A DNA stretch of 25,359 nucleotides, taken from a virus. Position 1 is the first letter of the stretch. Each line of letters starts with the position of its first letter. The stretch is taken from IMG/VR virus record IMGVR_UViG_3300021961_000580, positions 1 through 25,359 of that record; one strand, given 5' to 3'. Both the position numbers and the translations under genes were made by a program. Shown piece after piece: positions 13,675-23,233 of this stretch. The notes beneath the pieces were generated by a model, which ran no database searches, was not told the DNA's origin, and was given only the letters and a program-made list of their open reading frames with translations.

Positions 13675-14235
13675 ATGTTTGCTGTTCAACCTTATAATGT
13701 ACAGGTGTCCGTTATTCCGAAAGATATCTGTAATAAAATTATAGAGTTAGGAACACAACAAAGTTTAAGTGTTGCGTCTATACAAGAAGGCAATCAAAAA
13801 AATCGTAAATCAAAAGTATCTTGGATTAAAAATGATTTCATTAAGAAATCTATACACTCATTTATAATACGTGCTAATAAAGAAAGTAATTGGAATTATA
13901 TTATTAAAGATTATGAGCCTTTTCAATATACTGTTTATGAAAAAACAGATCACTATGATTGGCACATTGATACACACAATAAACTATACGATAATGGATT
14001 TATTAGAAAACTTAGTTTTACTCTATGTTTGAATGATGACTATACAGGTGGTGAATTTGAGATATGCGTTCCTAATCCTAAGTCTGAAAAAAACACATAT
14101 ATACAATTAAAAGATTCTTGTACAATAGGAACTATGATTGTATTTCCTAGTTTTGTTTGGCATAAAGTTAATCCTGTTATATCAGGAACAAGAAAAACTT
14201 TAGTAGGTTGGATTGTAGGAACACCATTTGCATAA
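13675..14235 (+). CDS. 2-oxoglutarate/Fe(II)-dependent oxygenase, prolyl-hydroxylase-like (186 aa)
   Basis: The double-stranded beta-helix signature is complete: H97-x-D99 in YDWHIDTH, a GGEFEI strand (125-130), GTMIVFPSFVWHKVNPV with the distal His (H163), and GTRKTLVGWI with R173 to bind 2-oxoglutarate. This resembles the prolyl 4-hydroxylase/PKHD group common in marine T4-like phages. The substrate is unknown; protein or nucleic acid hydroxylation or demethylation is possible. It lies between uvsY and uvsW with gaps of one base before and a one-base stop/start overlap after (TAATG), so it is co-expressed with recombination functions. Confidence 0.9.
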   Translation: MFAVQPYNVQVSVIPKDICNKIIELGTQQSLSVASIQEGNQKNRKSKVSWIKNDFIKKSIHSFIIRANKESNWNYIIKDYEPFQYTVYEKTDHYDWHIDTHNKLYDNGFIRKLSFTLCLNDDYTGGEFEICVPNPKSEKNTYIQLKDSCTIGTMIVFPSFVWHKVNPVISGTRKTLVGWIVGTPFA

Positions 14236-18084: not shown

Positions 18085-19790
18085 TATACTTTAAAACACT
18101 AAAATGGAAAAACTTTCTATCTACAGGTAATCAATACATAGAAATTGATTTACAGAAAGCACCTTCTACATTAATTATAGGAACAAATGGATCAGGAAAA
18201 TCAACTTTCTTAGACGCATTGTGTTTTGTATTATTTAATAGACCGTTTAGAGATATTAAAAAAGAACAATTAGTTAATACAATTAATAATGCTGATTGTG
18301 AAATACAAGTTACTTTTTCAGTAGGTACTAAGAATTATAAAATTATACGTGGAATTAAACCAAATAAATTTGAGATTTATTGTAATGATGTATTACTAAA
18401 TCAGGATGCCTCTAATGTTGATTATCAAAATACGTTAGAACAAAATATTTTGAAATGTAATTATCGTGCATTTTGTCAAGTTGTTATTTTAGGTTCTTCT
18501 TCTTATGAACCTTTTATGCACCTACGTGCTAGATATAGACGAGAAGTAGTTGAAGAAATTTTAGATATACGAGTGTTTAGTCATATGGACTTATTACTAA
18601 GAACTAAACAAGGTGAATTAAGTAAGGCTGTTGTTGATGTTAAACACCGTTATGATTTAATGACAGAAAAATATCATTTACAAAGAAAACATTTTGAACA
18701 AATACAAACAAGAGATAATTCTGATATTGAAAATAAAAAACAGCAGTTAGAAGAAAACAAAAAATATGATGAACAATATAATGAACAGTTACAAAAGTTA
18801 AATGAAGAAATTATATCTACGAAAGAACATTTAAAAGAAAAAGAAGAAATAGATAAAAAGGCAAATCAGTTATCTAAATTAGAGGCAAAGATTGAAACTA
18901 ACTTATTAAATCATAAAAAGAATTTAGAGTTTTTTCAGGAGAATGAAAATTGTCCTACTTGTACACAACAGTTAGAACCTGCATTTAGAGGTGAAAAGAT
19001 TGCTTTTGAAAAAGGCAAGATTACTACTTTAGAAGATGGACTAAAAGATTTATTAAATGAGATAATCAAAACAGAAACACGAATAAACGAAATGGCAAAA
19101 GTGTCTGAAAAGATTAGTAATTTAAATATTGAAATTGCAAAAGTAAATGCTTCTATTACAGAAATCAACAGACATTCAAATAGAATTAATGATGAGATTA
19201 TTAGACTAGAGAATGAGAAAAAGAACACAGACAATATAGAAACACAATTAGACTTATTGAAAGCAGAATTAGAACAAGTTAATATTGAGAAAGAAAAAGT
19301 TGTAGAAGAAAAGAAATATATTGATATTGCTAGAGAAATATTAAATGACACAGGTGTTAAAGCAAAAATTATCAAAAAATATTTACCTATTATGAATCAA
19401 TTAATTAATAAGTATTTACAAGCTATGGACTTTTTTGTTAACTTTCATTTAGATGAAGAATTTAATGAAACAATTAAAAGTAGATTTAGAGATACCTTTG
19501 TTTATAATAGTTTTAGTGAAGGTGAAAAATTAAGAATAGATTTAGCATTATTGTTTACTTGGAGAACTATTGCCAAGATGAAGAATAGTACCAATACTAA
19601 TTTATTAATATTAGATGAAATATTTGATAGTAGTTTAGATACAACAGGTACCGAAGACTTCTTTAAAATATTAAAAGAATTATCAAATGAAAATACATTT
19701 ATTATATCACACAAAGGAGATATAATGTTTGATAAATTTATTAATATAATTAAATTTGAAAAATATAAAAACTTTACAAGGATTGTATGA
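18081..19790 (+). CDS. 46: Recombination endonuclease subunit, gp46-like (Rad50/SbcC family), 569 aa
   Basis: This is the SMC-type ATPase partner of gp47. Walker A GTNGSGKS is at residues 34-41, the zinc-hook CPTC at 291-294 in the middle of two long coiled-coil arms, the ABC signature FSEGEK at 478-483, and Walker B LLILDE at 508-513 followed by SSLD. Each arm is Glu/Lys/Asn-rich and about 110-150 residues. Length is near T4 gp46 (560 aa). The gene starts at an ATGA overlap with gp47 and ends in another ATGA overlap with the deformylase gene, so three genes are translationally linked. Confidence 0.96.
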   Translation: MIYFKTLKWKNFLSTGNQYIEIDLQKAPSTLIIGTNGSGKSTFLDALCFVLFNRPFRDIKKEQLVNTINNADCEIQVTFSVGTKNYKIIRGIKPNKFEIYCNDVLLNQDASNVDYQNTLEQNILKCNYRAFCQVVILGSSSYEPFMHLRARYRREVVEEILDIRVFSHMDLLLRTKQGELSKAVVDVKHRYDLMTEKYHLQRKHFEQIQTRDNSDIENKKQQLEENKKYDEQYNEQLQKLNEEIISTKEHLKEKEEIDKKANQLSKLEAKIETNLLNHKKNLEFFQENENCPTCTQQLEPAFRGEKIAFEKGKITTLEDGLKDLLNEIIKTETRINEMAKVSEKISNLNIEIAKVNASITEINRHSNRINDEIIRLENEKKNTDNIETQLDLLKAELEQVNIEKEKVVEEKKYIDIAREILNDTGVKAKIIKKYLPIMNQLINKYLQAMDFFVNFHLDEEFNETIKSRFRDTFVYNSFSEGEKLRIDLALLFTWRTIAKMKNSTNTNLLILDEIFDSSLDTTGTEDFFKILKELSNENTFIISHKGDIMFDKFINIIKFEKYKNFTRIV

Positions 19791-20332
19791 TATACGAATT
19801 AATACCACCAAGTGATCCAAGAGTGTTAACAATGATTGCACCTTTTGACGAAAAGATATTACAAGAAGAAGAAAAAATATCACCTAAAGAATTTTCAGAT
19901 AATATGTTTGAAACAATGCAACAATATGGCGGTATCGGATTGTCTGCTAATCAAGTAGGTAAACCATATCGTATGTTTGTTATGGGTGGACATCCTCAAA
20001 TAGAATCAGGTAAAAAAAGAACTTGTTATAATCCTGTTATCAAAGGATACAGTAAAGAGTTGATAAGATTTAGAGAAGGATGCTTAACGTTTCCATATCT
20101 CTTTTTAGATATAAAAAGACCTAGAGCTGTCGCTGTAGAATATTATGACGAAAATATGACCAAAGTGGAAGAAAATCTAACTGGGATGTCCAGTCGTATT
20201 TTTCAACACGAATATGACCATATGCAAGGAATAGTATTTACTGAAAAAGTAAGTAAGTTTAAATTAAAATGGGAAATGGATAAACGTAAAAAGTCCATAA
20301 ATAAAATACAAAAACAATTAAAAAGAAAATGA
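19787..20332 (+). CDS. Peptide deformylase (181 aa)
   Basis: Removes the N-terminal formyl group from new proteins. The three family motifs are present: GIGLSANQ (49-56), EGCLT (97-101, Cys99 binds metal) and HEYDH (141-145, E142 catalytic). The second motif reads EGCLT where most enzymes have EGCLS, a conservative change. A Lys-rich C-terminal helix (from about residue 157) extends beyond the catalytic core, unlike many phage deformylases, which are truncated there. Deformylase genes are frequent in marine T4-like phages, where they are thought to support rapid turnover of formylated proteins. It starts at the gp46 stop (ATGA) and overlaps the next gene the same way. Confidence 0.93.
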   Translation: MIYELIPPSDPRVLTMIAPFDEKILQEEEKISPKEFSDNMFETMQQYGGIGLSANQVGKPYRMFVMGGHPQIESGKKRTCYNPVIKGYSKELIRFREGCLTFPYLFLDIKRPRAVAVEYYDENMTKVEENLTGMSSRIFQHEYDHMQGIVFTEKVSKFKLKWEMDKRKKSINKIQKQLKRK

Positions 20333-20529
20333 AGTGGCCAAAAGCACAAACAATTATTGACTGGAGAAAATCAGGTCGTATGAGAAAATATGATGAGATT
20401 TTTTGGGAAGGCGATAAGCGAACATATGACTGTTGGTTATCAATGGTAATAGAAAGAATAAAAAAAAATGACAAGACCTATATTGAAGAAACTGGATCTG
20501 CCAAGGTATCAAAGAAACGACCTAGATGA
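20329..20529 (+). CDS. Small hypothetical protein in the modification cassette (66 aa)
   Basis: A 66-residue basic protein beginning MKWPKAQTIIDWRKSGRM with four Trp residues in the first 42 and a Lys/Arg-rich C terminus. I do not recognise it. It starts at an ATGA overlap with the deformylase stop, and its last 62 nt overlap the next gene in another frame. Both overlaps argue that it is translated. The overlap also constrains its C terminus, which looks less structured (EETGSAKVSKKRPR). The basic, Trp-containing composition would suit nucleic acid binding, but this is a guess. Confidence 0.55.
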   Translation: MKWPKAQTIIDWRKSGRMRKYDEIFWEGDKRTYDCWLSMVIERIKKNDKTYIEETGSAKVSKKRPR

Positions 20530-21091
20530 GGCAGTTAACTATGTTGAAAGCCTAAATCTTTCTGTAGTTAAAACAAAATACAATAAAAAAGGTAATTGGG
20601 AGGCTATATCTTTACGAGGATATAGTAATGACCCTACTAATATTTTAAAACCAGGCGTACTAAAAACGGAAGAAAAAACAGATGCCGTTTTACAAGATAC
20701 ATCTTTAAGAGAACGACCAGAGATGGTTTCTATTAATGAAATATTAATTCACATACCTGCTGAGTTTGAACGTGTTAGAATTATGAGATTACGAGCAGGA
20801 ACTAAAATATCTAAACATACAGACAAAGTAGATAAGACAATAGGATTTGATGATGGGCAAATAGTACGATTGCACATTCCTATTAAAACAGACCCTAAAG
20901 TAATATTTTCTTTATATGAGGGTAACGATAAACAAGACCATTTTTTAGAAAAAGGAAGTTATTATTATACTGATGTTACTAAACCACACGAAGTACATAA
21001 TACGTGGGATCAGGATAGATTACATTTAGTTGTTGATTGTTATTCGAATCAAAAATTAAGAGAATTAATATTACGAGATGAATCACGCTAA
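20468..21091 (+). CDS. Aspartyl/asparaginyl beta-hydroxylase-like 2OG-Fe(II) oxygenase (207 aa)
   Basis: Motifs fit the Asp/Asn hydroxylase-like oxygenases: H117-x-D119 in KHTDK, RLHIPI (134-139), and KPHEVHNTWDQDRLHLVVD (172-190) with the distal iron ligand H174 and R184 for 2-oxoglutarate. The N-terminal 90 residues contain WEAISLRGYSNDP, a segment often found in this group in phages. It is a second, unrelated-looking 2OG oxygenase beside the one at 13675-14235. The substrate is unknown. The start overlaps the small upstream gene by 62 nt; sequence just after the ATG (ILKKLDLPRYQRNDLDEAV) looks like genuine protein. It overlaps the next gene by 14 nt. Confidence 0.85.
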   Translation: MTRPILKKLDLPRYQRNDLDEAVNYVESLNLSVVKTKYNKKGNWEAISLRGYSNDPTNILKPGVLKTEEKTDAVLQDTSLRERPEMVSINEILIHIPAEFERVRIMRLRAGTKISKHTDKVDKTIGFDDGQIVRLHIPIKTDPKVIFSLYEGNDKQDHFLEKGSYYYTDVTKPHEVHNTWDQDRLHLVVDCYSNQKLRELILRDESR

Positions 21092-21563
21092 CGATCAAAA
21101 CTTTGATGACATAATGAGTATATTTCACCAACATAAAAGTTGGTTTGGTCATATACGAAGTGATTATATTAGACAAACTATTATTAACAATAGTAAAAAA
21201 TTTAATTTCACTTCAAATTTAACATCAAAAAACAAAAGTAGTACATTGACTATTTTTGAAGATAACGTACTTATTACTTACAACATCTATAAAGTAAATA
21301 AAAAAATAGGTAACGTTCAAGCTAAAAAAGGTGATTGTATCTTACATCAAATAGGTGCTAAGAATAGAGATGGTTCTGCTAGTAGAATATTAAATAAATT
21401 CTTTGAGTATATTAATGGTGATGTACTTTTAAGTGTAAGACGTGATAATGTTTATGCAAAAAAATTTTATGAAAAAAATCAAATGAAATTAGTTGGAGAA
21501 ACCTCTTGGTCTAATAATACTATTCCAGGGGATATATATCGTTATGCAAAATCTATACGTTGA
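21078..21563 (+). CDS. GNAT-fold acyltransferase-like protein (161 aa)
   Basis: The C-terminal half fits a GNAT fold: strand DCILHQIGAKNRDGSASRILNKF (86-108; the RDGSA turn stands where the acetyl-CoA pyrophosphate loop is expected), then GDVLLSVRRDNVYAKKFYEKNQM (114-136), with the N-x-x-A-x-x-F-Y-E-K element of the motif B helix, and KLVGET. The first 60 residues are less typical. GNAT enzymes usually transfer acyl groups to amines. The Mu Mom protein, which modifies adenine in DNA, is a divergent relative. It lies between an oxygenase and two DNA methyltransferases with overlaps on both sides (14 and 20 nt), so a nucleic acid substrate is conceivable. Confidence 0.7.
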   Translation: MNHANDQNFDDIMSIFHQHKSWFGHIRSDYIRQTIINNSKKFNFTSNLTSKNKSSTLTIFEDNVLITYNIYKVNKKIGNVQAKKGDCILHQIGAKNRDGSASRILNKFFEYINGDVLLSVRRDNVYAKKFYEKNQMKLVGETSWSNNTIPGDIYRYAKSIR

Positions 21564-22167
21564 AAATTGTTTAGATACATTAAAAAGAAATTTAGAATAC
21601 GATTACGTATTAACTTCCCCACCAGATTTTGATGAATTAGGTAAAGACACTAATTGGTCATATAGAGAATTTTTAGAATCACTTGTAGAAAAACTTAATC
21701 CTAAGGGTAATTTTGTATCAATCTGTATAAGTGACAGAAAGAGTAAAGGTATTGTAGTATCTAAACATTGTATGGTTATTGACATTTTCAAAAAAATGAA
21801 GTATAATTTACATACACATAAATTATGGATAAAATCTACAGGAATTGATACAATGAGAATGAACTATCAACATTTACTCACATTTAGTAGAAATAAACAA
21901 AGTCGCCCTCTACAATCAGATTTTAGACCAGATGTTTTTATTGTTAATCAACATAAATGGAAAAACTTCAGTTATGGAATGCCTGTAAGAATAGTTGAAT
22001 TATTAATTAAAAACTATACAGATAAAGGTCAAGTTGTATATGATCCTTTTATGGGTTCAGGAACAACAGCAGAAGCCTGCATTAATACAAAACGAGAATG
22101 GATAGGTTCAGAAATTAATAAAAACTATTCAAAGATTATAAAAGATAGAATTAAAGATGTCAGCTAA
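21544..22167 (+). CDS. DNA amino-methyltransferase, N4/N6 family, with unusual motif IV (207 aa)
   Basis: I start at ATG 21544, since the longer frame from 21493 lies inside the GNAT gene. Motif order is IV, then X, then I, as in the beta-type N4/N6 methylases: TSPPDF (24-29), SYGMPVRIVELLIKNY (143-158) and DPFMGSGTT (167-175) with E190 as the likely adenosyl-ribose ligand. The catalytic motif normally has an aromatic residue after PP; here it is Asp, with Phe one position later. The protein is small with only a short region for target recognition. No restriction endonuclease is adjacent. It overlaps the second methyltransferase by 11 nt. Confidence 0.85.
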   Translation: MQNLYVENCLDTLKRNLEYDYVLTSPPDFDELGKDTNWSYREFLESLVEKLNPKGNFVSICISDRKSKGIVVSKHCMVIDIFKKMKYNLHTHKLWIKSTGIDTMRMNYQHLLTFSRNKQSRPLQSDFRPDVFIVNQHKWKNFSYGMPVRIVELLIKNYTDKGQVVYDPFMGSGTTAEACINTKREWIGSEINKNYSKIIKDRIKDVS

Positions 22168-23233
22168 AGAAGCAGTTAGAGATTGGAAAGATAACAAAGG
22201 ATTTCCTTATTATCCTAATGATAAAAAATGGCGTGATTCTGAATATCAAAAATTACTATCTTTTCAAAGAGATGGCATTTTAGATAGACCTAATAAAATT
22301 ATAGGACAATCAACACACGGATTATCACTTGCGTGGTCATATATGCCTCACGCTTGGGGTATTAAATGTGGTAAAATGAAAACACCTATAGAGATATGGG
22401 AAGATGAAGAACATTTAGAAAAAGGTATTAATAAGATTTTAACAGGTACATTCTTTAAACAAAAACCTGCACACGAAATAACAGACTCAGATATGAGAGC
22501 GATGTTAAGACGTTATAGTGGTACTCAAATGGTATCTAACTTTAGACCTACAGCAGCCGCAACTTTATATGACATCTTTGTAGAAAAGGATAGTCCACTA
22601 GAAGGCACTACTGCTGGTACAGTATGGGATCCAAGTATGGGTTATGGTGGTCGTTTATTAGGTGCAATCGCAGCTGGCGTTAATTACATAGGTACAGACC
22701 CTTGTGTTCCTACATATAAAGGGTTAGAACAAATAAGAGATGAATACGGACATAGTCATAAACAATATAAACTATTAAGACAAGGTAGTGAAACATTTGT
22801 ACCTCAACCAGAAACATTAGACTTTGTATTTACAAGTCCACCTTATCTAGGACACGAAATGTATGGTGATGAAGAAGAACAATCATTTAGAAAATTCCCA
22901 GTACAAGACTTATGGCGTAATGGGTTTTTATTAAAGACTATACAAAACGCATATATCGGTTTGAAACCTGGTAAATATGCAGCTTTCAATGTTGCAAACG
23001 TTAAATCATATAAGACATTTGAAGAAGACACTTACGAGTGTATGGAAGAGGCAGGATTTACAGATATAGATGTATGGTGGTTATCACTATCTACACAACA
23101 AGGCACACAGACACAATCTACACTAGAAGGCGAATCAATAGAAAGTAAACAGAAACAAAATTATGTAGGGCGATTCGCAAGACCTGACATCCCAGGACGT
23201 AAATATGAACCTATTTTCATAGGAAAAAAGTGA
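22157..23233 (+). CDS. DNA amino-methyltransferase with long N-terminal extension (358 aa)
   Basis: A second S-adenosylmethionine-dependent methyltransferase, with a different motif order from its neighbour: FRPTAAATLYDIF (129-141), motif I DPSMGYGG (158-165), YIGTDP (177-182), then a complete motif IV TSPPY (226-230). The SPPY form is common in N4-cytosine and some N6-adenine enzymes, so the base cannot be fixed. About 125 N-terminal residues (FPYYPNDKKW, SLAWSYMPHAWGIKCGK) precede the catalytic part and may recognise the target. Self-protection or epigenetic marking of phage DNA is a reasonable inference. It ends the overlapping cassette; a 107-nt gap follows. Confidence 0.87.
   Translation: MSAKEAVRDWKDNKGFPYYPNDKKWRDSEYQKLLSFQRDGILDRPNKIIGQSTHGLSLAWSYMPHAWGIKCGKMKTPIEIWEDEEHLEKGINKILTGTFFKQKPAHEITDSDMRAMLRRYSGTQMVSNFRPTAAATLYDIFVEKDSPLEGTTAGTVWDPSMGYGGRLLGAIAAGVNYIGTDPCVPTYKGLEQIRDEYGHSHKQYKLLRQGSETFVPQPETLDFVFTSPPYLGHEMYGDEEEQSFRKFPVQDLWRNGFLLKTIQNAYIGLKPGKYAAFNVANVKSYKTFEEDTYECMEEAGFTDIDVWWLSLSTQQGTQTQSTLEGESIESKQKQNYVGRFARPDIPGRKYEPIFIGKK

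Follow-up and report, generated by a model that had tools for sequence, protein, structure and literature searches.

DNA-hypermodification modules of phages are already known as a kind. Iyer and colleagues reportedly predicted phage hypermodification operons in which TET/JBP, ADDT and P-loop kinase genes stand together. In phage Mu, Mom, a member of the GNAT superfamily, acts on phage DNA. In cyanophage S-B43, CmoX makes carboxymethylcytosine, a C5 modification; there a DNA methyltransferase-type enzyme gives the handle and other enzymes extend it (PMC12783734). The DNA analyzed here, called the window, is a stretch of 25,359 nucleotides (25.4 kb; IMG/VR virus record IMGVR_UViG_3300021961_000580). 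It is a T4-like phage contig related to pelagiphages Mosig and HTVC008M, and its source phage is marine. The window possesses a cassette with a core of three genes, which encode an Fe(II)/2-oxoglutarate (2OG) oxygenase (OXY), a GNAT acyltransferase-fold protein (GNAT) and an amino-type DNA methyltransferase (MT2). It is likely that these three form the core of a modular system with which phages hypermodify their DNA, tailoring a hydroxylated, probably acylated, amino-acid-like group on a base. The oxygenase-GNAT pair would be the new element.

The TET/JBP-ADDT-P-loop-kinase operons contain a GNAT-OXY fusion that is homologous to the OXY and GNAT of the window. The window's cassette differs from them in lacking genes for TET, ADDT and a P-loop kinase, in having MT2 and a second DNA methylase, MT1, and in encoding OXY and GNAT as separate, overlapping genes. 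Mom is of the same superfamily as the window GNAT but has no detectable sequence relation to it, the latter resembling RimI, PaiA and Naa60. Mom is not known to partner such an oxygenase. MT2 is of the exocyclic-amino type (TSPPY), unlike the C5-directed CmoX, and the paper describing CmoX mentions neither an oxygenase nor a GNAT (PMC12783734).

OXY is located at 20468..21091, GNAT at 21078..21563 and MT2 at 22157..23233, all on the plus strand. Relatives were gathered separately by OXY, MT2 and GNAT, and each set was counted alone. Co-occurrence counts were restricted to loci that reach the upstream anchor (covered loci). GNAT was found in 63 of 64 covered OXY-selected loci and OXY in 73 of 76 GNAT-selected loci. 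The 70 MT2-selected neighborhoods contained OXY and GNAT in 48 cases, OXY alone in one, and a pyridoxal-phosphate (PLP)-dependent enzyme of the PALP family in place of GNAT in 21, six of these with a fused-type OXY. GNAT and PALP never occurred together in the MT2 group (Fisher P ~6e-17 on contigs), although collapsing similar MT2 proteins leaves 16 GNAT and 5 PALP lineages, so that the strength of this exclusion is inflated by common descent. A strict GNAT-or-PALP rule was abandoned, as it fails beyond pelagiphage-type loci; a different PALP protein accompanies a GNAT in L294 and L254.

Distinct junctions were found to overlap in 42 of 62 cases for OXY/GNAT and 37 of 48 for GNAT/MT2. Gene overlaps by themselves are ordinary in phages, but the conserved order of peptide deformylase (PDF), OXY, GNAT and MT2 in dozens of contigs exceeds chance. 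The original prediction had named the order hydroxylase-GNAT-methylase-methylase. A neighborhood search recovered that order in L133/L171, which are one contig; the recurrent core consists of OXY-GNAT-MT2 only. A rearranged form is present in L077-L081, where the overlapping order is MT2, OXY, GNAT. These are T4-like, with another gene order, and gp46/PDF are not beside the cassette. The conservation of the three genes, also in rearranged form, is one reason to favor DNA hypermodification. L169, a phage-like contig with a DnaB-type helicase and a PolA-type polymerase that is binned to an Elusimicrobia genome, has a GNAT-OXY fusion whose gene overlaps one for an MT2-like protein. An alternative cassette, composed of a GNAT-OXY fusion, PALP, glycosyltransferase-like and 2-hydroxyacid-dehydrogenase-like genes and MT2, was observed in L109 (2266-5993), L145, L305 and L306.

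Many OXY homologues have about 165 extra N-terminal residues. In profile-profile comparisons with hhalign, these N-termini and the stand-alone GNAT proteins aligned across 128 columns (probability 96.4, P 1.2e-9), and actinophage-type N-termini aligned with those of the other fusions (96.3, P 1.7e-9). Unrelated control profile pairs gave P values of 0.01-0.77. The putative kinship of the actinophage N-termini to the GNAT family is transitive, a direct alignment being absent. LilMcDreamy gp4 matched the L255 fusion over nearly its entire length (E 1e-31). Because the N-terminal domain of the fusions is homologous to the stand-alone GNAT, OXY and GNAT are linked by both adjacency and fusion.

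A scan with fusion queries yielded 80 loci; together with reference loci, 81 OXY neighborhoods were examined. PALP was present in 49 of these (31 also with MT2), and TET/JBP, ADDT and/or P-loop kinase in 17 (12 with TET and ADDT). The rest contained a stand-alone GNAT (6), MT2 only (2) or none of these neighbors (7). At least three of the last seven are cut by a contig end, and L269, another of the seven, has a C5-methylase-like gene upstream. The neighbor families were checked (Tet_JBP, 6.7e-9; ADDT, 2.4e-7 and 3.4e-11; Ploopntkinase3, 1.3e-26). The GNAT-OXY fusion is a regular member of TET/JBP-ADDT-P-loop-kinase operons (LilMcDreamy gp4, L312-L331). There is a genetic link to known hypermodification enzymes, through the TET/JBP, ADDT, P-loop kinase, methylase and PALP neighbors of the fusion, and this is a second reason for reading the cassette as a DNA-hypermodification system. 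The cassette had been described as having no partner nuclease, and the DNA-hypermodification contexts of the OXY-GNAT relatives likewise have none.

The operon of LilMcDreamy also includes gp2, of a family that matches Tet_JBP (its own match is weak, 0.0022), and gp3, an ADDT protein (2.7e-12). The gp2 gene (855-1787 in L162/L164) is annotated as a queuine tRNA-ribosyltransferase, which is also the name of PHROG 6059. This annotation looks wrong. A deazaguanine (DpdA) role for gp2 was dropped, since its relatives match Tet_JBP. No C5 methylase was detectable in LilMcDreamy, so 5-methylcytosine is unsupported as the TET substrate; oxidation of thymine is possible. A thymidylate-synthase-type hydroxymethylase was also considered as a source of a modified pyrimidine and set aside, PF00303 being found in 0 of 9 records.

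PALP proteins are themselves joined to DNA methylases. In Erythrobacter phage ZS04 (L250, 2326-4764), a PALP domain interrupts a DNA methylase that has a ParB-like N-terminus, separating its motif I half (VLDPFAGGS) from its motif IV half (SCPPY). In Microcystis phage Mae-JY30, the genes for a methylase and a PALP protein overlap. L255 and L256 possess N6_N4_Mtase-type methylases beside an OXY fusion and PALP, and the L255 locus has a ParB domain. The ZS04 insertion and the L255 and L256 neighborhoods further argue for action on DNA.

OXY matched PF05118 (Asp_Arg_Hydrox, 2.9e-13, above the cut-off) and has the HxD...H iron triad and the fold of this Asp/Asn/Pro hydroxylase branch. Among 43 aligned relatives, H117, D119, H174 and H186 are invariant and R184 is nearly so. 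The HxD motif is at 117-119, with H174 the probable distal histidine and R184 probably binding 2OG. The model (predicted local distance difference test, pLDDT, 93.0) was equally close to L-proline cis-4-hydroxylase (4p7w) and Cpz10 (7v4m), at Z 16.8 each, and less close to human AspH (Z 14.2). A profile search gave the same top two, with E values of 9e-9 and 2e-5, respectively. Cpz10 carries out beta-hydroxylation of the aminobutanoyl part of an aminoacyl-glycyluridine substrate (PMC9814697). Both enzymes share the 2OG oxygenase fold and branch of OXY, at about 20% identity. Since these are the nearest solved relatives, OXY appears more likely to hydroxylate a group resembling an amino acid than the methyl of a base. 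That a joint-closest structure hydroxylates an aminoacyl-uridine is also consistent with DNA hypermodification. No match to Tet_JBP (PF12851) was obtained at E up to 10, and TET kinship was ruled out by family and fold. The TET-like oxidation once proposed for OXY is thus not upheld, and TET-like enzymes are instead neighbors in other phages. A second 2OG-Fe(II) oxygenase (PF13640, 7e-14) is encoded at 13675-14235 of the window, between uvsY and a UvsW-like helicase.

GNAT had no Pfam match, and a rimI model matched it at 1.3e-4. Its structural model (mean pLDDT 90.6) gave Z 15.7 to 3g8w and 14.5 to RimI (2cnm), and the matched chains shown for it were all GNAT proteins. The predicted fold is that of a textbook GNAT, with RimI-like topology, near RimI, PaiA and Naa60. 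In the acyl-CoA loop, [RQ]-x-x-G-x-[GA], G99 is invariant in the 41-row family alignment, G-x-G/A is mostly retained and the first position is variable. A single-sequence scan with the window GNAT found no relatives, and an alignment was required to retrieve the family. Neither the window GNAT nor that of L258 had a match in a cultured phage. Comparison with Mu Mom gave an hmmsearch E value of 0.18 (3 targets) and an hhalign probability of 0.2 over 27 columns. A Mom-type GNAT had been suggested, and this kinship was dropped for lack of either sequence or profile signal. The reading of the cassette as a DNA-hypermodification unit is supported in that its genes are functionally linked, recur together and have kin in hypermodification contexts, but the Mom and TET chemistry first ascribed to it is not supported.

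MT2 also had no Pfam match. It matched phrog_498 DNA methyltransferase (5e-6) and PADLOC MTase_II (2e-4) weakly. Motif I (DPSMGYGG, residue 158) and motif IV (TSPPY, residue 226) are both present, the latter invariant in 24 relatives. Relatives found with the MT2 profile include a ParB and N6_N4_Mtase protein beside OXY and PALP. MT1 (21544..22167, plus strand; ATG at 21544, alternative TTG at 21493) is a beta-class N6/N4 DNA methylase (PF01555, 6.3e-21) in which SPPD replaces SPPY/F. SPPDF was found in 3 of 3 distinct MT1 sequences (window, 21544-22167; L133, 5354-5977; L137, 5315-6007), and the change may indicate an altered reaction or substrate pocket. A single-sequence scan with MT1 found no relatives. 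Its homologues are limited to L133/L171 (one contig, 73%), with the order OXY-GNAT-MT1-MT2, and L137 (58%), with OXY-OXY-MT1-MT2. Because they occur in only two other contigs, MT1 is an accessory gene and not the core member that it had been taken for.

From the genes, folds, conserved order, fusion and DNA-modification neighbors, we infer DNA as the substrate, together with the order of steps, the group and the purpose that follow. MT2, supplemented locally by MT1, would recognize sites in the phage DNA and modify an exocyclic base amine. OXY would then put a hydroxyl on a base-borne amino-acid-like or alkyl group, and GNAT would use a CoA donor to acylate the amine or hydroxyl. In related phages, PALP in GNAT's place, in some with glycosyltransferase-like and dehydrogenase-like genes, could give a different final group. 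The product is probably a bulky modification on phage DNA, which would be shielded against host nucleases.

Several points weigh against this explanation. GNATs and PF05118 enzymes mostly modify proteins, peptides and free amino acids. The fused GNAT domain often has no G-x-G/A acyl-CoA loop, the assignment of MT2 to DNA methylase families rests on weak matches, and OXY in L307 and L322 has no modification neighbor in view. In PfAn1 (L253, 3659-4723) and DC33 (L252, 4710-5782), a distant PF05118 gene is followed by a GNAT of another group, and genes for internal virion proteins come after this acetyltransferase in PfAn1. These two were not counted as family members, as their GNAT does not match this GNAT family. 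Limnohabitans phage DC33 (L252; PQ492659.1) is classified in its record under Inoviridae, to which its size of 39 kb does not fit. The shared order is partly due to common descent, most OXY-GNAT-MT2 contigs belonging to one related phage group. Pelagiphage-type contigs are mutually related, so raw counts are inflated. The independent evidence consists of four or more settings, namely the pelagiphage type, the L077 type, L169, the actinophage type and the L255/L256 type.

It is also possible, though unlikely, that MT2 and MT1 provide plain methylation (N4-methylcytosine or N6-methyladenine) against restriction, and that OXY and GNAT, adjacent by chance, work separately as a pair on proteins or peptides. 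Phage methylases lacking any partner are common, and PF05118 enzymes and RimI-like GNATs classically target proteins or amino acids. OXY and GNAT do occur with no MT2 in view in L258, L259, L261, L262 and L294. However, in unrelated phages the OXY-GNAT pair meets MT2, ParB-methylase, PALP-methylase, C5-methylase-like and TET/ADDT/kinase genes.

Upstream of the cassette are terminase, UvsY, UvsW, a sigma factor and gp47/gp46. The six open reading frames (ORFs) are all on the plus strand; gp46 and PDF overlap by 4 nt, and the overlaps down the run are 4, 62, 14, 20 and 11 nt. These coordinates, overlaps and five of the genes agree with the six-gene run first described. The exception is the 66-aa ORF (20329..20529, plus strand), which overlaps OXY by 62 nt. 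It had a homologue in none of the fetched loci, is missing between PDF and OXY in relatives, and has a third-position GC content (GC3) of 0.28-0.33 versus 0.15-0.20 in its neighbors. It is probably not a gene and was left out of the cassette on account of this non-coding-like composition and the lack of a homologue. PDF (19787..20332, plus strand; PF01327, 2.6e-38) has the active-site motifs GIGLSANQ, EGCL and QHEYDH. Its place in the cassette, like that of the 66-aa ORF, was not sustained; its association is positional only, and it is judged a syntenic neighbor outside the mechanism. The original prediction was, then, partly confirmed as an observation and partly supported as an interpretation. 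Sixteen proteins of the GNAT-like PF05292 family (malonyl-CoA decarboxylase C-terminal domain, 1e-6) were also noted, such as that at 3503-4000 of L133, between PDF and OXY; they are often upstream of OXY in L147-type loci.

PDF is immediately upstream in most pelagiphage-type members, and a translation or host-takeover block could be imagined in which PDF, a RimI- or Rac-like GNAT and a ribosomal-type oxygenase modify host ribosomes or RNA polymerase. GNATs of jumbo phages have been proposed as modifiers of RNA polymerase or ribosomes (PMC7824862). This is very unlikely here, as PDF is missing around OXY-GNAT in the L077, L169 and actinophage-type loci, where the fusions are accompanied by no translation gene, and is present where GNAT is absent.

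The region is a mosaic slot. L040 shares 90, 83 and 95% identity with the window in gp46, PDF and MT2, but 58% in OXY and 41% in GNAT, and the nearest kin of the window's OXY (L002-L012, ~74%) and GNAT (L133, 59%) differ. This variability would suit independent accessory genes in a recombination hot spot between the anchors gp46/PDF and MT2/vWA, yet such random cargo is the least probable explanation given that the OXY-GNAT pairing is near-obligate and fused elsewhere and that GNAT and PALP replace each other at a single position.

Within the favored DNA-hypermodification system, a new route can be put forward tentatively. An Asp/Pro-hydroxylase-type OXY may hydroxylate a base-borne amino-acid-like group in place, and a RimI-like GNAT may acylate it or a PLP enzyme within or next to the DNA methylase may process it, the final decorating enzyme being exchangeable. 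This would resemble the aminoacyl tailoring of nucleoside antibiotics, but on DNA. If true, the known chemistry of phage DNA would gain an Asp/Pro-hydroxylase-like oxygenase and GNAT pair, as well as a DNA methylase with a PLP enzyme built into it. A bulky base that methylation assays miss would be predicted, and LilMcDreamy, a phage of M. smegmatis mc2 155, is an isolate in which this can be tested. Viruses with the cassette are present in many marine samples. The system would also help to account for the variation in DNA chemistry among phages of streamlined marine bacteria.

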